Of a stretch of 26,352 nucleotides of DNA, positions 1-10,300 are shown in pieces; positions within the stretch are counted from its first letter, which is position 1, and each line of letters begins with the position of its first letter. Under the pieces are notes generated by a model. It worked only from the letters and a program-made list of their open reading frames with translations. It searched no databases and had not been told where the DNA came from. Both the position numbers and the translations under genes were made by a program. The DNA lies in IMG/VR virus record IMGVR_UViG_3300010300_000090, positions 1 through 26,352 of that record. The stretch is one strand, 5' to 3'. This DNA is from a virus.

Positions 1-176
1 AGTCTGGTCCATATCCAGCGTCATTGAGAGGACCAGCATAATTTCCTGTAAAATATTGGTAGCTACTGGTATAGAATCCTACATAGGGGTTTCTATATCC
101 ACCAAATGCAGGCAATACTCGTCTGGTCCCAACCCACTGAAATTGCCTATCTCCACCATAAATGGCAACACCACCT
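1..176 (-). repeat. Fibre cassette copy A (cut by window edge)
   Basis: This segment matches 3897-4072 with 4 differences in 176 bases by direct alignment, and matches 3303-3478 less closely. It encodes the GGVAIYGGDRQFQW ... PLNDAGYGPD module inside the left-edge fibre gene. In the other two copies the similarity continues past the point where this copy is cut, so it probably extends beyond base 1. Confidence 0.93.
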
Positions 177-1588
177 GCAAAAGTTCCAGGTTGAGCTACA
201 GATCTAGTGCCAGCAAAGTTTACAGTTACAACTCCAGCAAAATTTCCAGGTTGAGATGCAGTGCCTGCAAAGTTTGCTGGTTGAGGTCCAACATAGTTTA
301 CATTAACAAAACCAGCAAAGTTAACATTTCTGACACCAAGGTAATTTATAGTTCTTACGCCAAGGTAGTTAACATCTCTGACGCCAAGGTAGTTAACATC
401 TCTGACGCCACCAAAGTTAACATTTCTGACGCCACCATAGTTGGTTGGTGTCGGTCCAGCAAAGTTTGCTGGTTGAGGTCCAGTAAAGTTTGCTGGTTGG
501 GGTCCAACAAAGTTTATTGGTTGAGGTCCAACGAAATTATTTGGTTGAGGTCCAACGAAATTAGCTGGTTGCGGTCCAGTGAAATTCGCTGCTCGAGGAC
601 CACTAAAAGATACATCTCTGACACCACCAAAGTTAACATTTCTGATGCCAAGGAAGTTAACATCTCTGACACCACCAAAGTTAACATTTCTGACGCCAAG
701 GAAGTTAACATCTCTGACACCGCTGTAATTTTGAGGTCCAGTATACTGAGAGGAATAACTTCTATCACCAGCATAGTTCTGAGATGCAGTAGTATATCGA
801 GTATCTACCGCTGTACCACGTGCTTCCCAAGTCCCTGTAGCGACAGGAGCACCTTGCGCTGACGAACGTAGTTCATATGTTCCGACATCTCCGTGAACGA
901 AATGTCTGCTTAGGATTTGACCGAATGTTGTGGATTGTTCGGTATCAGACATCGCCTCAAGACCGCCGTCATAGGCAGCAAGAGGATATGCGCCATAACT
1001 ACCACGTTTAATGTGTATGGCATTACACTTAGTTGGCGCTGTGCCTGTTTGTCTTTCCCAAATAGTGTAGTTAGTTACTGTGCCATCAGTGGTAGTATCT
1101 GAAAAAATATTTGTTAGATGAGCAGACCAATCTCCACTAGGTGCTGAAGAGGCAAGTCTATATGAACCAGGATATTCATTACTTACTAATATAGACCTCA
1201 GTGCATGTGAAAGATCATGCATTTGGTCATTATCAAAGTCGTGAATTTGTGCAGAAGTTTCATATACTGGGCGACGAAAATTAACAGTATCGTCTAGAGT
1301 TATACTAGCACTTCCAGAACGTTGGTACAAGGTAGTGGTTGTAGAACCAATGCTAAGAGAAGATCCAGGATGAGTACCTACTGGCTCATTATAAAAAGTG
1401 TTGGTAAAAGAACCAATCGCCGTATCATTAGAAACTGAAGAAGATCTAAGTGTACCACCATGATCTGCTGTTCCTGCTAGATGGACTCCTGCCTTGAACG
1501 CCAAATAGTTTTCATTGGTAGCAGTCGCTCTCTGGAGATTACCAGAAGCGTCTTTTTGGACTATAGGTAGTTCGTATGGTTTTGCCAT
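1..1588 (-). CDS. Octapeptide-repeat tail fibre protein, partial (C terminus beyond window)
   Basis: Reading from an ATG at 1588, the frame stays open for 529 codons to base 1, so the 3' end lies outside the window. The N-terminal ~260 residues are a non-repetitive domain with TNTFYNEPVGTHPGSSLSIG near residue 65 and GTWEARGTAVDTRYTT near residue 250. Both motifs recur in the 803-residue fibre at 2842-5253, so the two are paralogues. Residues ~270-470 are tandem octads of the form NFxGVRDV or NFVGPQPA. From about residue 472 a longer Gly/Tyr-rich module (GGVAIYGGDRQF...) begins. Octads with a regular aromatic-Gly pattern suggest a long beta-structured, probably trimeric shaft; this is inference. 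A TATAAATA late promoter lies 32 bases upstream. Likely role: host-receptor-binding fibre or fibre shaft. No catalytic motif is visible. Confidence 0.8.
   Translation of the reverse strand, partial: MAKPYELPIVQKDASGNLQRATATNENYLAFKAGVHLAGTADHGGTLRSSSVSNDTAIGSFTNTFYNEPVGTHPGSSLSIGSTTTTLYQRSGSASITLDDTVNFRRPVYETSAQIHDFDNDQMHDLSHALRSILVSNEYPGSYRLASSAPSGDWSAHLTNIFSDTTTDGTVTNYTIWERQTGTAPTKCNAIHIKRGSYGAYPLAAYDGGLEAMSDTEQSTTFGQILSRHFVHGDVGTYELRSSAQGAPVATGTWEARGTAVDTRYTTASQNYAGDRSYSSQYTGPQNYSGVRDVNFLGVRNVNFGGVRDVNFLGIRNVNFGGVRDVSFSGPRAANFTGPQPANFVGPQPNNFVGPQPINFVGPQPANFTGPQPANFAGPTPTNYGGVRNVNFGGVRDVNYLGVRDVNYLGVRTINYLGVRNVNFAGFVNVNYVGPQPANFAGTASQPGNFAGVVTVNFAGTRSVAQPGTFAGGVAIYGGDRQFQWVGTRRVLPAFGGYRNPYVGFYTSSYQYFTGNYAGPLNDAGYGPD
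461..604 (-). repeat. Tandem 24-bp repeats (six units) in fibre gene
   Basis: Six consecutive 24-base units, 461-484, 485-508, 509-532, 533-556, 557-580 and 581-604, each encode one octapeptide of the type GPQPANFV. They share the core gctggttgaggtcca with a few substitutions. The unit is exactly eight codons, so gain or loss of units keeps the frame. Confidence 0.88.
613..720 (-). repeat. Tandem 48-bp repeat in fibre gene
   Basis: A 48-base unit (613-660) is repeated immediately at 661-708 with one base difference, and a partial third copy starts at 709. Each unit encodes two octads, alternating NFGGVRDV and NFLG(V/I)RNV types. Related single octad units occur at about 373-440. This level of identity suggests recent duplication or ongoing homogenisation. 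Confidence 0.88.
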
Positions 1589-1620
1589 GACTATCTGCTA
1601 TACTGATGAATTTATTAATC

Positions 1621-1628
1621 TATTTATA
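1621..1628 (-). promoter_or_regulatory. T4-type late promoter (TATAAATA)
   Basis: The minus strand reads TGTATAAATAGATT, an exact match to the T4 late promoter core TATAAATA. It overlaps the stop codon of the glycosyltransferase gene and lies 32 bases before the ATG of the left-edge fibre gene. No -35 element is expected, because late promoters in this group use a phage sigma factor (gp55) and clamp. Confidence 0.75.
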
Positions 1629-2364
1629 CAGAAGAAGGTTGATAGACTTCTCTATCAGCTTGGCATGATCGATGGAAGACAACAACGTCATCAGTAAGAG
1701 GTTCTTTAGTTCGATCAGTTAATGCCCAATAATTCCACCGATAATCTTTTTCAAACGTGGAAACCTTTACATCCTTCCACTCTGGCATCTTTTCTGTCAT
1801 CCACCAAAGAGTAAACTGGTCCCATATATGATTCTCGTGGGGATAGTTATGTGTATCCCAGTTTCCTGCTTCGTCTGTGGGCCACCATTCTTTTGCTTGT
1901 TGCTTCACAAATAAATCAAACCAGTATTGCATAAACTGCATTACACGAGGTTTAGAACTATTATAAAGGCAGCAAGCACCGCAAAGTTTGAACTCTCCTC
2001 CTGGGAAATCTCCTCCATTAAACATGTACATTCTTTCTGGAGTTATTTGCGGGAATAGTACATCATTGTCTCCAAGTTCATCAAAAACCGTTTCAATCCC
2101 AGGACCAATAATATTCATATCGGCGTCCATGTAAAACGTTTTATCGAAGGGAGATCTAGCCATCCCCCACATTTTAGTTCTTCGATGACTTGGACCGATT
2201 AATAAATGATCTGCTATTTTTTCCCTACCGTCAAGAAATTTCTCTTCAGTAACAAAACAAATTTTTGCTTCAGGATACCAATCTTTTATTTCTTCCATGA
2301 GCATGCATGCCCAAGGATAATAGTAGTATTCATTTGAAGCAACAATCAAATATCCATTATTCAC
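1624..2364 (-). CDS. Putative GT-A fold glycosyltransferase
   Basis: This 246-residue protein begins with a beta-strand-like GYLIVASNEYYYYPWACMLM, where a nucleotide-sugar binding strand would lie. It carries a DAD triad (residues 80-82, in FYMDADMN) typical of the metal/nucleotide-diphosphate-binding DxD motif of GT-A enzymes. DQFTLWW (182-188) and a C-terminal FHR (230-232) resemble the acceptor-side DQ and the late metal-binding His seen in GT8-like families. The start is a GTG at 2364 inside the end of the upstream gene (8-base overlap), consistent with translational coupling. Its place between two fibre genes suggests that it decorates a fibre or a host glycan. Donor, acceptor and exact GT family cannot be read from the sequence. 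It is cytoplasmic, with no membrane segment or signal peptide. Confidence 0.7.
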   Translation of the reverse strand: MNNGYLIVASNEYYYYPWACMLMEEIKDWYPEAKICFVTEEKFLDGREKIADHLLIGPSHRRTKMWGMARSPFDKTFYMDADMNIIGPGIETVFDELGDNDVLFPQITPERMYMFNGGDFPGGEFKLCGACCLYNSSKPRVMQFMQYWFDLFVKQQAKEWWPTDEAGNWDTHNYPHENHIWDQFTLWWMTEKMPEWKDVKVSTFEKDYRWNYWALTDRTKEPLTDDVVVFHRSCQADREVYQPSSV

Positions 2365-2818
2365 TTTTTACAACCGCAATACCAAGTTCTTCCATCATTA
2401 TTAATTGAGCATAGAGATTCATCTCTACTACGTTCTTTGCCCGTCTAAGTTTAGACTTCAATTCTTTATTCTCAGTATTCTTTATTTGATCAATTTCTAA
2501 AATTTTAATTTTAGCATCAAATAGTTGTTCAAGTTCTCTTGCCTGTTCTTCTGCTTTTTTACGTTGAGCATGAATTTCTGCTTCTTTTTCTTTTCTTTCT
2601 TTTCTTTCAGCAGTATTTTTATCTATTTGTTCGACAGAAACCTGTGAGATAAGTTCCTCCCAATCAGGATTAATGCTTTCATTCTGGTCGAACTTGCGAA
2701 CAGTTACTACTTGGTTTATGTTGCGCCCTTCATCATCAGTGATAACTAAAATCGCTTCAGCGATTTCTTTCTCATCATTGTGCCAAAAAGCATTATCTAA
2801 CCATTTTCTTGTTGCCAT
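2357..2818 (-). CDS. Hypothetical coiled-coil protein, possible fibre assembly factor
   Basis: I do not recognise a named family. The first ~65 residues are mixed and acidic (KWLDNAFWHNDEKE ... NPDWEELI). After the phrase QIDKNTAERKERKEKE the protein becomes a strongly charged Lys/Glu/Arg/Gln helix, predicted coiled coil, to about residue 135, ending in a short hydrophobic helix (MNLYAQLIMMEELG). Two adjacent ATGs exist at 2821 and 2818. AGGAG is 6 bases from the second and only 3 from the first, so I chose 2818 (153 residues). Small coiled-coil proteins next to fibre genes in T4-like phages are often assembly chaperones, but that role is only inferred from position. Confidence 0.7.
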   Translation of the reverse strand: MATRKWLDNAFWHNDEKEIAEAILVITDDEGRNINQVVTVRKFDQNESINPDWEELISQVSVEQIDKNTAERKERKEKEAEIHAQRKKAEEQARELEQLFDAKIKILEIDQIKNTENKELKSKLRRAKNVVEMNLYAQLIMMEELGIAVVKSE

Positions 2819-2824
2819 CATAAT

Positions 2825-2829
2825 CTCCT
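2825..2829 (-). promoter_or_regulatory. Ribosome binding site AGGAG that selects the second ATG
   Basis: The minus strand reads AGGAGATTATGATGGCA. The Shine-Dalgarno core lies 3 bases from the first ATG and 6 from the second, which favours the second. Confidence 0.6.
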
Positions 2830-2841
2830 ATGATAAAATTA

Positions 2842-5253
2842 TTATACACCTACTCTTACATATAAGGTATAAGTTTCAATGTCTGCACTAACTGCAACCA
2901 AAGTTTCTCCTGTGTATTGGGCACTATATTGTGCAGAAAATTGACTAGTGAAATTACCAGTATATTGTCCTGAATAGTAACCAATAAAGTTCTGGGTGAT
3001 AGTACCTGCGAAATTTCCTGGTTGTGGACCTGCAAAATTACCAGGAACAATAACTGTGCCTGAGAAATTTCCAGGAACAACTCTTGTTCCTGAGTAGTTC
3101 GTAGGAGAACTAAAATTCCCTGGCCTGACACCAGAAAAGTTTGTTGGTTGTGGTCCTAAAAAGTTTGAAGGAACACTTCCGCCAAAGTTCGTAGAATAAG
3201 TTCTACTACCAGAAAAACTCCTAACGCCTGAAAAATTCCTAATTCCTGAAAAATTTCTTGTACCAGACCAATACCCTATACCAGAAAATTGATTGATAGG
3301 GGAGTCTGGTCCATATCCAGCGTCATTGAGAGGACCAGCATAATTTGCTGACCAATATTGATAAGAAGAAGTATAGAATCCTACAAAGGGGTTTCTATAT
3401 CCACCAAATGCAGGCAATACTGATCTGGTCCCAGCCCACTCAAATTGTCTATCTCCGCCATAAATGGCAACACCACCTGTATAGTTCGCTGGAGCAGAGG
3501 CGAAGTTGATAGGAAGAGAGACAAAGTTACTAGGAGCAGTGTAACTTGTAGAATAAGTTCTACTTCCAGAAAAATTTGCTGCTCTAGCACCAGAAAAATT
3601 AACTTGGGCAACACCAGAGAAATTTGAACTTCTAGTACCGCTATAAGTTGCAACACCAGTAAAACTTCCTGTACCGCCAACGAAGTTTGCTGGTTGTGGA
3701 CCAACAAAGTTTGCTGGTTGTGTCCCAGAAAAGTTTCCTGGTTGTGGCCCAGAAAAGTTTCCTGGTTGTGAACTTGCAAAATTCGATGCTACTGTGCCCG
3801 TAAACTGTGCTGTTACAACACCAGCAAAATTTCCAGGTTGGGGAACAACTCTAGTTCCTGCCCAATATCCAACACCAGAAAATTGATTGATAGGGGAGTC
3901 TGGTCCATATCCAGCGTCATTGAGAGGACCAGCATAATTTCCTGTAAAATATTGGTAGCTACTGGTATAGAATCCTACAAAGGGGTTTCTATATCCACCA
4001 AATGCAGGCAATACTGATCTGGTCCCAACCCACTGAAATTGTCTATCTCCACCATAAATGGCAACACCACCTACGAAATTTCCAGGTTGTGTGACATCTC
4101 TAACTCCAGAAAAGTTTGCTGGTTGAGGTCCAGAAAACTGTGCTGGCACAGGCGAAACAGAACTTACAGTTCTAACACCAGAGAAAGTTGCGTCTCTAAC
4201 GCCAGCAAAGTTTACAGTTCGAACACCACTAAAGTTTACATCTCTAACACCAGAATATTCTGTAGTGCCACCTACAGTCCTTGTTCCTGCAAAGTTTGCT
4301 GGTTGTGCTCTAGTACCTGAAAAGTTTACAGTTCGAACACCACTAAAATTTGCTGGAGTAACTGTTGTAGAATACCCAACATATACACCAGTAAATTGAC
4401 TAGAAAAAGTGCCTGTAAACTGAGGACCAGAAAAATATGCACTGGTATATTGAAGATTTTGTGTTGTGTACCGAGTGTCTACTGCTGTACCGCGTGCTTC
4501 CCAAGTTCCAGAAGCAGTTGGCGCACCTTGAGCAGATGTTCTCAATTGACACTCGCCAATACCACCTTTTTCAAACCCATATTTGATCATAGAGGCAGCA
4601 AGTATTGATGTTTCGCTATCTGTCGACTCTTGAAAATTAATCCCACCGTTATGTTTTAACGGATTTATTGTCTCAGTTAAACTAGAAGATTCTTTTCTCC
4701 AGATACTATAAGTTTCAGTTGGACCGCCAGAGGATTTTGTATCAGTGTATATGTTTGGAAGCCAAATTTGCCAACCAGTAGCAGGTGGGTTTTTCGAAAG
4801 TCTAAAAGATCCAGGGAATTCATTGGAAACGGATTGCTCTGCTATTCTTATACTGAGTGTCTCGAAAGAAGCAGAATCCATTACATACAGATCGCCATCG
4901 CTATCAGTCGCGACTACGTCTACAGTTGAACTGTTCCAAGGCAAATCATCAACAGAGTCTAGCATTTGTCTGAGAGGATATGAAACAGATCCTATAGACA
5001 ATGAAGATGCTGGGTGTGTTCCGACTGGTTGATTATAGAATGTGTTTGTAAATTGTGCAGGACCAACATCTGAATCTAAAGCAGTGTTTGTGGTTGTTAA
5101 AGATCCACTGTATCGCGCACCTGCTGAATCATATTGTGAAACTATTTTGAGACATCCAAGTTCAGAAAGAACTAGTTCTTCTGCGGATGTTAATTGTTTC
5201 AAGTCGCCATTAGAATTTAGTAGTTTTAATGGGACTGTACTAAAAGCAGTCAT
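2842..5253 (-). CDS. Octapeptide-repeat tail fibre protein with two long cassettes
   Basis: An 803-residue protein. Residues 1-~270 form a non-repetitive domain sharing TNTFYNQPVGTHPASSLSIG, SVSNEFPGSFRLS and GTWEARGTAVDTRYTT with the left-edge fibre. Residues ~275-785 are octads such as NFSGVRTV, NFAGTRTV and NFVGPQPA. These are interrupted by two copies of a ~73-residue Gly/Tyr-rich module at about residues 395-467 and 593-665. The last ~20 residues are non-repetitive (LVAVSADIETYTLYVRV). AAGGA lies about 8 bases before the ATG. The upstream gene ends 9 bases away. I read it as a fibre or fibre shaft with a conserved attachment head and a variable-length repeat body. The repeat style resembles fibre proteins of marine T4-like phages. 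Receptor and oligomeric state are unknown. Confidence 0.82.
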   Translation of the reverse strand: MTAFSTVPLKLLNSNGDLKQLTSAEELVLSELGCLKIVSQYDSAGARYSGSLTTTNTALDSDVGPAQFTNTFYNQPVGTHPASSLSIGSVSYPLRQMLDSVDDLPWNSSTVDVVATDSDGDLYVMDSASFETLSIRIAEQSVSNEFPGSFRLSKNPPATGWQIWLPNIYTDTKSSGGPTETYSIWRKESSSLTETINPLKHNGGINFQESTDSETSILAASMIKYGFEKGGIGECQLRTSAQGAPTASGTWEARGTAVDTRYTTQNLQYTSAYFSGPQFTGTFSSQFTGVYVGYSTTVTPANFSGVRTVNFSGTRAQPANFAGTRTVGGTTEYSGVRDVNFSGVRTVNFAGVRDATFSGVRTVSSVSPVPAQFSGPQPANFSGVRDVTQPGNFVGGVAIYGGDRQFQWVGTRSVLPAFGGYRNPFVGFYTSSYQYFTGNYAGPLNDAGYGPDSPINQFSGVGYWAGTRVVPQPGNFAGVVTAQFTGTVASNFASSQPGNFSGPQPGNFSGTQPANFVGPQPANFVGGTGSFTGVATYSGTRSSNFSGVAQVNFSGARAANFSGSRTYSTSYTAPSNFVSLPINFASAPANYTGGVAIYGGDRQFEWAGTRSVLPAFGGYRNPFVGFYTSSYQYWSANYAGPLNDAGYGPDSPINQFSGIGYWSGTRNFSGIRNFSGVRSFSGSRTYSTNFGGSVPSNFLGPQPTNFSGVRPGNFSSPTNYSGTRVVPGNFSGTVIVPGNFAGPQPGNFAGTITQNFIGYYSGQYTGNFTSQFSAQYSAQYTGETLVAVSADIETYTLYVRVGV
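3280..3478 (-). repeat. Fibre cassette copy B
   Basis: This is the second long module in the 803-residue fibre, offset exactly 594 bases (198 codons) from copy C. Over the 176 bases comparable with copy A it differs from copy C at 14 sites. Eleven of these are packed into 3347-3370, which changes the encoded FTG to WSA and switches two Ser codons from AGY to TCT type. Confidence 0.92.
3874..4072 (-). repeat. Fibre cassette copy C
   Basis: This is the first long module in the 803-residue fibre. It is nearly identical to copy A at the left edge of the window (4 differences in 176 bases) and less like copy B in the same gene. Confidence 0.93.
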
Positions 5254-5262
5254 GTCCAGTCC

Positions 5263-7086
5263 TTACGGCAATGGATTCAGTAATATACCATTACGGTCGT
5301 ACACATTTGGTATTCTACTATTAATATCTGATAATGCGCCGTCTACTGTTTTTGTTGTAGTGATTGGCGAACCAGTGCCACTTGAAGGCATTGTAATACT
5401 ACCTGCAACCGTAACATTCGCGCCAGAAAATGTCATTGCAGTAGTTGTGCCAGATTTTAGGATCAAATTACCAGAAGTATTTGTAAAAGCAGCAAATTGA
5501 GTACCAGCATCTTTTAAGAAAACATCACCGCCATCAGCATCTAATGCAATATCACCAGAAACATCTAAGGTGTAGTTTCCTGTGACCGCAACGGTATTAG
5601 TTGCGCCCATGGTATGTTGAATACGAGTAGTGCCAGCGTCCTTGAAGAAGATATCTGCACCATCAGCATCTAACGTAATATCGCCAGGAGTATCAAACGT
5701 CAAACTACCAGCACTTTGCGTATGTGTTACATTACTAGGATATGTTACTGAGTAATCAGCATTGTCTGCAAGAGTGTGCGTTACTTGATCAGCACCTGCG
5801 CCATTTTTGAATACGATGTCGTTTCCGTCCGCATCCAGTGTAATATCACCAGATATGTCAAATATAAGATCACCTGTACGTGATATCGTACCATTTGTAG
5901 CAAATTGATAGTTTGTGGTTCCACCGTCTTTCAGGTATACATCACCACCATCCGCATCAAGTGTAATATCTCCCGAAACATCAAGTATGGCATCTCCAGT
6001 ATGAGTGATGGTATCAGTATCAATGTCCCAACTCTTGGTTCCAGCATTTGTATTGAGGACAAAAGATTGATAAGCATTTATTGTGAAATCGCCTGCTGTA
6101 TTAGTAATACTAGCAGCGGTTCCTGTAATCGTCATATTAGGAGCAGCATCAGCGTTTAATCTAAATCGCTCAGTCGTTCCATCTTTAAATATAAAGTCGT
6201 CACCGTTAGCATCAAGAGTGATGTCGCCGGAAACATCATATGTTAAGTTTCCTGTTACAGTCGCAGTGTTAGTTCCTGCTGGGTCTAAGGAGTAGACTAT
6301 AGCATTTGCGCCATCATCTTTAAGAGAAAGAGAACCAGTACTAGTATCAATGACAACATTTCCGGCAACGTCAACGGTGTAGTTTCCGTTTACTGTTACA
6401 GTGTTAGTTGCGCCGAGAGAATGTTTAACTCTAGATACTGTAGCAACTTGCATGTCAATGTCAGCACCACCTGCATCAAGAGTAATATCTCCGGCGACGT
6501 CAACAGTTAAATTACCCGTCGGAACATCTATCTCTTGATTCGCTCCCATTTGAAAATCGAAACGAATGGCACTATCATCTTTGAAAGTAATATTAGCACC
6601 GCCAGCATCAATGATAACATCGTTTACTGCATCTAAGAAAATATTATGCCCTGCTCTGAGTTCAATTCTTTGACCACCAGATTGCGCAGTGCTGATCAAT
6701 AAACGATTTTCAGTTTCAGTAACATCGCCAGTAGGATACAAAATCTCACCAGAGGAAGCATCGAACACTCGTTCAATCTCGTTGATAGCGTCAGTTACAG
6801 TCTTATATGCTGTATTCGTATCTGCTTTAAAATTACCGCCACCTACTCCGTGTAAGTCGCTATCAAGTTCGTTCAAAGCGTCTGTGACGGTGTTAGCAGT
6901 AAAATCGTCCAGTCCCCTCAACTTGCCCAAATAACCTGAAGTTTCTGGTCCTAAAGCAGAATCCAGATACTTCATATCCGAGTCAACAATATTACCGAAA
7001 TGGTTAAGATCGTTAATTAATTGTTGAAACGTATCCGTCGTTTGAAATAGAGGATGATCGCTATCATGAAATTGATTGTTAGCCAT
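5263..7086 (-). CDS. Repetitive beta-rich fibre or baseplate structural protein
   Basis: A 607-residue protein. The N-terminal ~110 residues are helical and Asp-rich; QTTDTFQQLINDLNHFG resembles the short head regions at the N terminus of phage fibre proteins. From about residue 135 the chain is built of ~40-residue repeats whose core is VSGDITLDADGGDVYLKD. I count about eight recognisable units, some degenerate (TAGDFTINAYQSFVLN). These predict a beta-helix or beta-prism shaft, probably trimeric. The Asp-rich turn DxDGxD recurs in four units. The C terminus ends NVYDRNGILLNPLP. The start ATG overlaps the last 8 bases of the upstream 81-residue gene. I assign a virion fibre role from the repeats and the position just after the wedge genes; I do not recognise a specific T4 equivalent. 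Confidence 0.72.
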   Translation of the reverse strand: MANNQFHDSDHPLFQTTDTFQQLINDLNHFGNIVDSDMKYLDSALGPETSGYLGKLRGLDDFTANTVTDALNELDSDLHGVGGGNFKADTNTAYKTVTDAINEIERVFDASSGEILYPTGDVTETENRLLISTAQSGGQRIELRAGHNIFLDAVNDVIIDAGGANITFKDDSAIRFDFQMGANQEIDVPTGNLTVDVAGDITLDAGGADIDMQVATVSRVKHSLGATNTVTVNGNYTVDVAGNVVIDTSTGSLSLKDDGANAIVYSLDPAGTNTATVTGNLTYDVSGDITLDANGDDFIFKDGTTERFRLNADAAPNMTITGTAASITNTAGDFTINAYQSFVLNTNAGTKSWDIDTDTITHTGDAILDVSGDITLDADGGDVYLKDGGTTNYQFATNGTISRTGDLIFDISGDITLDADGNDIVFKNGAGADQVTHTLADNADYSVTYPSNVTHTQSAGSLTFDTPGDITLDADGADIFFKDAGTTRIQHTMGATNTVAVTGNYTLDVSGDIALDADGGDVFLKDAGTQFAAFTNTSGNLILKSGTTTAMTFSGANVTVAGSITMPSSGTGSPITTTKTVDGALSDINSRIPNVYDRNGILLNPLP

Positions 7087-7324
7087 TCTGCTGCTTCTCT
7101 ATCATTGTTCTTATTAGGTCTTTGAGTTCTGAAAACTCTTGCTTTAGTTGGGCAACGTCGTTTTGCATTGCCTGTTCTGCTTCTCTCTTTTCGAGCATAC
7201 GCTTTTTAGATTCACGTGCTCGGCGAATCTCTTCACTGTTTGTATTTAGTATTGCTCCTGTTGACATGTCCTTTACTAGACCAGTGTACCCCTCAACAGT
7301 AACATATCCTTTTCTATTTATCAT
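7079..7324 (-). CDS. Small coiled-coil protein of unknown function
   Basis: 81 residues. The first ~30 residues (MINRKGYVTVEGYTGLVKD, TGAILNTN) look like a short beta-hairpin unit, and the rest is a charged helix (EEIRRARESKKRMLEKREAEQ ... LKQEFSELKDLIRTMIEK) with heptad-like spacing of Leu, Met and Ile. The ATG overlaps the TGA of the 1942-residue gene as ATGA, and its own stop overlaps the next ATG. The gene is therefore embedded in a tightly coupled run, which supports it being real despite its size and the lack of a clear Shine-Dalgarno sequence. A structural linker or assembly role is possible but unproven. Confidence 0.72.
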   Translation of the reverse strand: MINRKGYVTVEGYTGLVKDMSTGAILNTNSEEIRRARESKKRMLEKREAEQAMQNDVAQLKQEFSELKDLIRTMIEKQQNG

Positions 7325-10300
7325 ATCAATGCAATCGCTTTGATGTCTCTAATAATAGGAATCTGACAACTGTTTCTAGATCTCAGAACTACTTTAACTT
7401 GGAATTGTCTGAAATCAGGCAAGTCGCCATCTACACCGCCAACCAAGTATCGGTATTCGCTATAAGACAGTTCGCCAGAACCTTGTACATAGAGATCTTT
7501 AGATGGATCATTTTCTGCACTAAGTTGAATCCAGTTTCTGCTATAAATGTCGTCATCCGAACCTGTAGTTGTTCTATAGTATGTGTCGAAATCTGCTTGA
7601 GGTGGTACGTGCATCTTAATAATAATCCTTAAACCATTACCTGCCTCTGGCAGAACAACTGGTTTAGTGATGTGTTTAGATGGCGTCGTACCTGAAAGCG
7701 GATTAGTTTCAGCAACATAATCCGTTGGCGCATTCCTAATGGTAGTTGCTACTCCATTATCAGCTTGGTTATCAATCAGGTAATTCATCATCATAGCACC
7801 AACACCCTGTATGTCGATGATAGGCGTCACGTCAGAAACATAACCCGATGATTTGAAAGTCTGTGCTCTCGGACCACCAAAGTTGGATACCTGTGAAGTT
7901 TGCATTGAAGTGGTTACCACAATAGATGGTTGACCGTTCAATTGAGACGGATTAACTGTTTGATCACTGTTGGCCAAATATCTTGGATTATCAAAGTAGA
8001 TTGTTTCAAACGGAGTTAAAGTAAACCTACCGTTTCCATTAGTTCCTGTTGAAGCAGCATCATCAATGTTAAATCGCGTGTCTTGAGTTGCTGTTGATAA
8101 TCCAACTTGTCCATGAGAAAATCCGCTTACGAAACTGGCTTCATATCTGATACTTGTTCCTGTAAAATTGACATCGGATATGTTCCAATTGAATCTATCT
8201 ATGTTACATGCTGAAAGCGAAGTCACAGAATCAGCACCAAATTTTCCTGTGCTAGTAAACGTAGATCCATCATCAATTGCAACATAATATCCAGTAATAT
8301 CTGGATCAACAACTACGTTAGCAGTATCCATGATCGATGCGCCAGTAACGCCATTATAGTTAGTTGCTGCGCCCAATCCCTCAATAAGGACTTTATCACC
8401 GTCCAAAAGATTGTGATAGAAATGATCAACGCGGAATCTATTCAAGTCATCAGAGTCAACTCTCATGCTAGTAGCATAGTTGTGATGCGTTCTAAAATTA
8501 GGTTGATTGTAGAAGTTAACATTACCAGAATTTTTGAATTTCGCAGTATAGATTCTAAACGCCAAATCTTGATTCTGTTTTGGAGTCCATGAAGAACCGT
8601 TTTGTGACAGGAACAAAGATCCTGTCGCTGGTTGCTTACTAACTCTCTTATCTGTTCTACCAATAATCAAGTCGTATGTGGTAGCAATAAATGCTTGGTA
8701 ATCATCGCAATCTGATAACAAACAAATAGCATACTCTTTACCCGCACGAATGTAAATTGGTTCTGGGAACTCAAACGTAACTGGATTAGACAAGATGTCA
8801 TTTAAAGTTCCTTCATCAGGATCAGTTACATTGGGAATGTTGTTAACTATAGCATAAACATCAGCAGCAGATCTGTATACGCAATGTTGTTCACTTATAG
8901 GTGCATTTACAGGCGTACCGTTTACCACATCTCTAATTTGTAGTTGTATTGGAATTTGTGGTTTGCCTGGAGGTGGTGCTGATCGCAAAAATATATCTAC
9001 TTTTGTCACAAAAGCACCGTCCGTCATAGAAGATCCTACAAGCGAGAAAGTTTGCGCGAGTGGGTCATATGGTTGCCAAACTACTGTAGTTTGTGAGTCA
9101 ATAGTTTCTGATTCAAGAATTCCACTTACTGTATCAATGTAATCTTCAGACCTTACTACTCGCGTGCTGATAATATCCTTTCTTCTAGTAATTGCTCTAC
9201 CAGCAGCAGCATATTTTGTTTTCGCTCTAGAAAGAGCGTCCGCGTTTATGCCTGAAGAAATATCAAGGAGTTTTATTTCCCGAGTGCCGATCCTGAATTT
9301 CCAACCTGCGTAGTCATAAACTTGTGGCGAACCTGCTCCATAAAGGGCAACACCTTCTTTTACCTTTTTAACCCAAGTATCCAGTTCTTCCTCATAAGGG
9401 AATACGTCAGATTTAGGAATAGGTATGGTTGCTGTATTAGGAATAAATAAATCGAAATACAAATTACCATTAGCATCTGAAAACAATGCGTTCTCGTTAC
9501 TAACTCCTAGGGAGTTTGGATGTCTTTTTATAGTCGTCCAACTCGTAGGATATTGGGTTTGATGCGCCCGTTGAGCCAAGAGAGTAGTATAAGATCCCTC
9601 TGTTCTGCTAAGAACCCATTGATCCATTCTAATACCATCAAAATATAACCAGAAGCGAGTGTCTGGGCGTAGACCTTCTGCTTTACCCAAAACTCGACGG
9701 TTCCTTATAAAAGGCACAGTACTAACATCGATGATTTTATCATCTTCAAATGTTTCGATTTGATCGCTTACTACTCTGGTTCGAACACGTTCCGTAGTTC
9801 TCTGCGTAAGTCGACGAGTAGTGGTTGTTCGTTCAACTTCTCGTTCGACTCGCCCTTGCTCATTGATCCTACGACCGCCTAAATCACGAACAGTAGTTCT
9901 AGTTGATACGAAAGTAGATGTCCAAGTTCTTGGTACATATGCTGACAAATCATTAAGTTTAATATAAATTGTTTCGTTAGTAACACTTCGATCTGGTAGT
10001 CTGTAATGGTCAACCCAAAAATCTCTTGAAGGGGTGACTTTAAGATTACCTTCACCAGCAAACACATTAAATGGGTTTACGTTATAATATCCACGCTCTT
10101 CATAAGAATATGGCGTTCTCCAAGAAATTACTTCTTGCGTTAAGGCAGAATCCAAAACTTCTACATAGTCAAGCATTAGCATATCGCCACGCCTAACAAC
10201 GTTGTTCAACTGAGGTATGCTTGCTCTTGGTCCTCCAAGGGTAGATCCGTTGTAAGCATTAGCAGAATCCCAATAGAAATCGTTCCAGAACTTAGTATGC

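Follow-up and report, generated by a model that had tools for sequence, protein, structure and literature searches.

Near-identical copies of a cassette in two old paralogous fibre genes of a T4-like phage

Two paralogous fibre genes of a T4-like phage carry three near-identical copies of one in-frame cassette, and related phages keep both genes without it. With modest confidence, we favor a model in which the two fibres are old paralogs and the cassette is a replaceable insert that would have been gained by recombination and then multiplied within the genome to three copies. A natural phage population would thus have recently multiplied a single fibre module over two genes that probably serve host recognition, and the same fibre block has also been exchanged between species.

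The fibre family and its cassette copies

The window analysed here, i.e. the whole IMG/VR record of 26,352 bases, comes from an uncultured T4-like phage with kin among the Kyanoviridae, such as the Pelagibacter phages HTVC008M and Mosig and the phage C48C1, and covers its tail and baseplate module. The fibre genes, the cassettes and the upstream gene all lie on the minus strand, and two small genes separate fibre 1 from fibre 2. The features are as follows, with the basis of each in brackets.

5263–7086, minus strand: upstream gene, 607 residues, with recombination junctions inside (matches PHROG baseplate assembly and wedge initiator families)
2842–5253, minus strand: fibre 1 gene, 803 residues, holds cassettes C and B (open reading frame and comparison with relatives)
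4453–5253, minus strand: anchor (N-terminal) domain of fibre 1 (anchor alignment)
4072–4452, minus strand: octad array 1 of fibre 1, 127 residues (sequence layout)
3850–4072, minus strand: cassette copy C, fibre 1 residues 395–468 (direct base count and alignment)
3478–3849, minus strand: octad array 2 of fibre 1, 124 residues (sequence layout)
3256–3478, minus strand: cassette copy B, fibre 1 residues 593–666 (direct base count and alignment)
3347–3370, minus strand: 24-base block of copy B, one octad, with 11 sites unlike A and C (direct base count)
2905–3255, minus strand: octad array 3 of fibre 1, 117 residues (sequence layout)
2848–2904, minus strand: conserved C-terminal strand of fibre 1, ETLVAVSADIETYTLYVRVG (relatives' sequences; predicted by AlphaFold to pair with the anchor)
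2–1588, minus strand: fibre 2 gene, 529 residues visible, the rest cut off by the contig edge (open reading frame; its ortholog is the 711–836-residue second fibre of relatives)
797–1588, minus strand: anchor (N-terminal) domain of fibre 2 (anchor alignment)
1–176, minus strand: cassette copy A, its C-terminal part beyond the contig edge (direct base count)

The gene of 246 residues between the fibre genes (1624–2364) is kept in relatives and resembles a nucleotide-sugar transferase (DADMNI motif); family searches returned no family above the cut-off for it. Its product, a putative nucleotide-sugar transferase, might modify the fibres.

Members of the fibre family share a plan that consists of an anchor of ~265 residues, octads (aromatic-x-Gly followed by five residues), non-octad inserts and a conserved C-terminal strand. 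An alignment search of IMG/VR with the anchor domain gave 50 loci, across which the anchors are homologous by alignment, and the fibre 2 anchor matches C48C1 in tblastn with E=1e-30. In the window, the octad array followed by the C-terminal strand (ending in ETYTLYVRV) is present in fibre 1; the end of fibre 2 lies beyond the contig edge, and its visible part consists of the anchor, some 207 residues of octad arm and then cassette A. No anchor domain was found in GTDB genomes, and the family, with its about 50 IMG/VR loci, is not described by Pfam, PHROGs, NCBIfam or PDB, none of which gave a match above cut-off. The HMM match to C48C1 was set aside as circular because C48C1 sits in the training alignment. 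A 307-residue protein of Mosig, picked out by eye as an array-less relative (N...DTR...TYYL), was rejected since the HMM of anchor and C-terminal strand ranked it no higher than its own shuffles.

The full cassette comprises 74 residues (GGVAIYGG...GYWAGTR; bases 3850–4071 in copy C and 3256–3477 in copy B) and is inserted in frame among the octads, as an earlier note on this DNA had described it with an estimated length of ~73 residues. A direct count agrees with that note in finding four differences per 176 bases between copies A (1–176) and C (3897–4072), i.e. 97.7% identity (172/176); copy B (3303–3478) differs from C at 14 and from A at 18 of these bases. In the full-length alignment of B and C, which covers 223 bases, the identity is 90.6%, and the copies are 88–97% identical as proteins. 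That the rest of the two genes is much more diverged is borne out by the anchor domains, which share 364 of 780 aligned bases (46.7%) and 93 of 260 residues, and against which the near-identical cassettes clearly stand out. Thus, a near-identical tract with diverged flanks is present in both paralogs, and recent transfer or duplication of the cassette between the fibre genes is, on these comparisons, well supported. If purifying selection had preserved an ancient module in the two genes almost without change, the copies would likewise encode nearly the same protein. This explanation is scarcely tenable: it is already contradicted by the orthologs of both genes, which are without the module, and by the synonymous sites, at which A and C likewise hardly differ (three of 58 codons differ, one synonymously and two with a change of amino acid).

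The earlier note also placed B further from C than A is. Taken literally this holds (14 versus four differences), but a single 24-base block causes the gap: 11 of the 14 B–C differences, which together affect ten codons, are packed into copy bases 45–68 (within codons 36–44), and a clustering of at least 11 of 14 differences inside 24 bases occurred in none of 200,000 random placements. Four of the seven codons changed between B and C in this block are changed synonymously. Without the block, B and C differ at 3/152 bases and A and C at 4/152, from which it follows that B is not older, that elsewhere all three copies are related to about the same degree and that the argument for a more recent exchange between A and C falls away. 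Copy B looks like a mosaic that carries one octad-sized patch from a diverged allele; alternatively, the patch belongs to A and C.

Because the window ends within copy A, so that the true length of A is beyond the contig edge, and because the last 83 bases of A are exactly those of C, reads from cassette C could conceivably have extended the contig end into the fibre 2 cassette during assembly; the related contigs L034 and L032 also break in fibre genes. We consider such an artefact very unlikely, given that four bases between positions 84 and 146 are particular to A, that the flank on the anchor side of A occurs in fibre 2 alone and that the remaining junctions of the window have overlaps of 6 and 11 bases, which is too short for a k-mer chimera.

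Related lineages and the origin of the copies

Three lineages keep the gene pair around the same two small genes, with fibre 1 and fibre 2 lengths of 650 and 711 residues in L028 (four contigs), 810 and 828–836 residues in L036/L039, and 703 and 835 residues in L043. With its L028 ortholog the fibre 1 anchor of the window shares 49% identity, with its fibre 2 paralog 35%, and the paralogy therefore predates these lineages. In the alignment with related genomes that the earlier note had proposed as a check, both paralogs are retained and none of the three lineages has the cassette. The cassette is absent from 11 related contigs, including both fibre orthologs; it has no match in IMG/VR by peptide patterns (from the single sequence or from the alignment of A, B and C) or by a 31-base DNA pattern, and tblastn against INPHARED gave only weak matches to unrelated Pseudomonas phage proteins (best E 0.3), leaving no second genome with the cassette among the IMG/VR and INPHARED records searched. 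In L028, L036, L039 and L043, the centre of fibre 2 is occupied by another insert, with NGPMP and WQF as its anchoring motifs. As relatives keep both genes without the cassette and none was found elsewhere, the cassette appears to have been gained and multiplied in the lineage of the window. Downstream of fibre 2, L028 also encodes a 1,229-residue protein of short repeats of the SGVAERTI type (5769–9458).

Combining these data, we suggest that the cassette is a replaceable insert module of the octad-array fibres that would have entered the fibres by recombination in the lineage of the window, and that intragenomic recombination would then have multiplied it to one copy in fibre 2 and two in fibre 1. 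In this scheme, the fibre 2 copy would have been placed where the orthologs hold their central insert, and the octad repeats on both sides could supply the in-frame homology for the exchange. The earlier note had proposed recent gene conversion or cassette transfer. Of these, transfer across genes stands, in view of the 97.7% identity of the cassette copies A and C, which lie in old paralogs. Conversion specifically is not supported because the orthologs of both genes lack a homologous cassette to convert; insertion or replacement combined with duplication, or two imports from one donor, would fit at least as well.

Alternatively, each fibre gene may have acquired its cassette independently from the gene pool of other phages, without any copying from one gene to the other in this genome. 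Phages of different species demonstrably exchange this block, as described below, and the divergent 24-base block of B implies that other alleles of the cassette exist outside the genome of the window. Against this, neither IMG/VR nor INPHARED contains a donor, and the import of two near-identical alleles in addition to a third copy in one gene is less economical, and we regard separate imports as unlikely.

Intragenomic multiplication of an insert, which we favor, can also be compared with the behavior of the family at large. In other two-fibre genomes, the longest match between the two genes at 88% identity or more spans 101 bases, compared to 220 bases at 92.7% in the window, and exchange between the genes does not appear to be a general habit of paired fibre genes. 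If all octad repeats evolved in concert, the cassette would be just one example of a general process, and other fibres do show matches of 72–140 bases at 88–94% identity between or within genes. However, the 220-base match at 93% is an outlier and the octads that flank the cassettes are only about 29% identical between the two genes (58/200 bases in the best register tried), which makes this explanation highly improbable. The giant fibre of C48C1 contains an in-frame tandem duplication of an insert and the octads next to it, 225 bases long with a single difference, at the end of the duplication. Within the fibre family, insert duplication has thus occurred independently in a second phage.

Recombination of the fibre block between phages

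Comparison of contigs identified two adjoining tracts with different closest relatives.

4582–5541, no strand assigned: tract 98.6% identical to L034 (13 mismatches in 960 bases; contig comparison)
5531–5970, no strand assigned: tract about 95–96% identical to L036/L039, inside the upstream baseplate/fibre-connector gene (contig comparison)

The bases of the fibre 1 anchor from 4582 to 5253 fall within the first tract. Outside it, L034 is about 66–71% identical to the window over most of the comparison, with one more stretch of high identity near 6460–6840, and, judged by these values, is a different phage species. Similarly, L036/L039 are about 64–76% identical to the window outside the second tract. 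Rightwards from about 5945, L032 and L033 are 99.75–99.78% identical to the window, but with an allele break at about 5960 they change to another fibre allele that is 99.4–99.7% identical to the start of L043, which may represent the rest of the L032/L033 strain. Two fibre alleles therefore occur on one backbone, in strains that are 99.75% identical. The exact overlaps at the junctions, i.e. at the ends of the second tract, are 11 and 6 bases long and thus below usual assembly k-mers, and the junctions are most likely the result of natural recombination. In total, positions 4582–5970 of the window, where the fibre 1 block meets the end of the gene upstream of it, are a mosaic of three phage backgrounds.

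Fibre 2 is affected as well. The fibre 2 genes of L028 (10176) and L036 (13685) are 90.7% identical over their first 901 bases, the anchor; L039 (11041) is 96% identical to L036 elsewhere, yet its fibre 2 anchor is like those of the window and L043. There are two types of fibre 2 anchor, and phages that are otherwise nearly identical have swapped them.

Known fibre systems and a possible fold-back of the chain

Phages are known to alter host binding by duplicating and exchanging modules of their fibres. In the T4 adhesin gp37, duplications of small domains are reported to expand the host range (Tetart et al. 1996, J Mol Biol 258:726; PMC6466182, PMC9603124). In gp37 as in the window, a T4-like phage has a long tail-fibre protein with a short module duplicated in frame; the present case differs in that the module has 74 residues and is inserted into an octad array, in that two paralogous genes are involved and in that no sequence relation to gp37 was found. 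At the T-even fibre loci, recombination is reported to take place between conserved motifs (Tetart 1998, J Mol Biol 282:543; PMC6466182). Here too the fibre region is exchanged via short conserved stretches with junctions in or beside fibre genes, but the protein family is another one and the exchange in the window extends into the upstream baseplate-type gene. The gp38 proteins of S16 and T2 contain a polyglycine sandwich with hypervariable loops, Gly-rich repeats that extend from beta structure, in S16 from a beta-helix, and variable loops at the distal end (PMC6851490). They share with the window fibres the long, repetitive, Gly-containing extensions from beta structure, and their variable distal segments have been proposed as receptor contacts; the window fibres, in contrast, are without GGG motifs or short polyglycine helices, have far longer arrays and combine anchor, array and inserts in one gene. 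The triangular beta-helix of T4 gp5 is likewise built of eight-residue repeats with a recurrent glycine, with Gly at position a, Asn/Asp at b and Val at g (PMC3004832), whereas in the window octads aromatic-x stands before the glycine and Val-Arg or Pro-Gln frequently comes after it. The gp5-type pattern was found neither in the fibre sequences of the window nor in those of relatives, and there was no match to a PDB profile; similarly, searches of Pfam, PHROG, NCBIfam and PDB gave no match to a known fibre that would place the proteins in the gp37 or gp38 families. Within the Kyanoviridae, a 3,347-residue hypothetical protein of C48C1 (L004 14992–25035) has an anchor 37% identical to that of the window together with octads, inserts and the same C-terminal strand; unlike the window, C48C1 has one giant gene instead of two moderate ones, and other inserts.

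By analogy, the case described here would resemble the gp37 and gp38 systems in its working without belonging to them by sequence, and duplication and swapping of T4-type adhesins is its closest precedent. This precedent, together with the central position of the insert in relatives, makes the cassette a candidate receptor-contact unit that may touch the host surface.

Several features suggest, but do not prove, that the fibre folds back with the insert at the tip: the pairing of the C-terminal strand, arms of near-equal length that change together, and a mirrored order of motifs. In AlphaFold models, which are of low confidence overall (pTM 0.35 for fibre 1 and 0.20 for the array alone), the C-terminal strand of fibre 1 (residues 784–802) is a paired strand with a pLDDT near 80. 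As there is no strand in residues 268–783, its partner in the model must be in the anchor; when the array is modeled without the anchor, the C-terminal strand is not formed and the confidence is 45–67. With landmarks picked by eye, the arms around the central insert of fibre 2 measure 181 and 186, 252 and 253, and 246 and 251 residues; in a second group, for which TRGY was the landmark, they measure 218 and 251, 246 and 288, and 321 and 354 residues, with a near-constant offset. Arms of near-equal length were noted at L028 10176–12311, L036 13685–16195 and L043 4131–6638 and in the fibres of L047 and L049. The motif order is mirrored, in that the reversed comparison exceeds the forward one, in 10 of 10 fibres of 650–952 residues from L028, L036, L043, L047 and L049 (z 1.2–3.6), which are partly related and thus not independent tests; a mirrored order was not seen in the giant fibres or in fibre 1 of the window, and a search for the position of the mirror axis gave a modest signal.

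Tentatively, and at somewhat less than even chances, the array might thus form a giant loop between the anchor and the C-terminal strand paired with it, the inserts at the tips recombining within and between fibres and species while the arm lengths change together. If so, the insert of fibre 2 would be the tip and a second arm of ~207 residues is predicted past the contig edge; moreover, fibre tips of the family could be located from sequence alone, as the middle of the array, and their diversification measured in metagenomes. In fibre 1, the two cassettes lie between the arrays of 127, 124 and 117 residues and are roughly symmetric about the middle.
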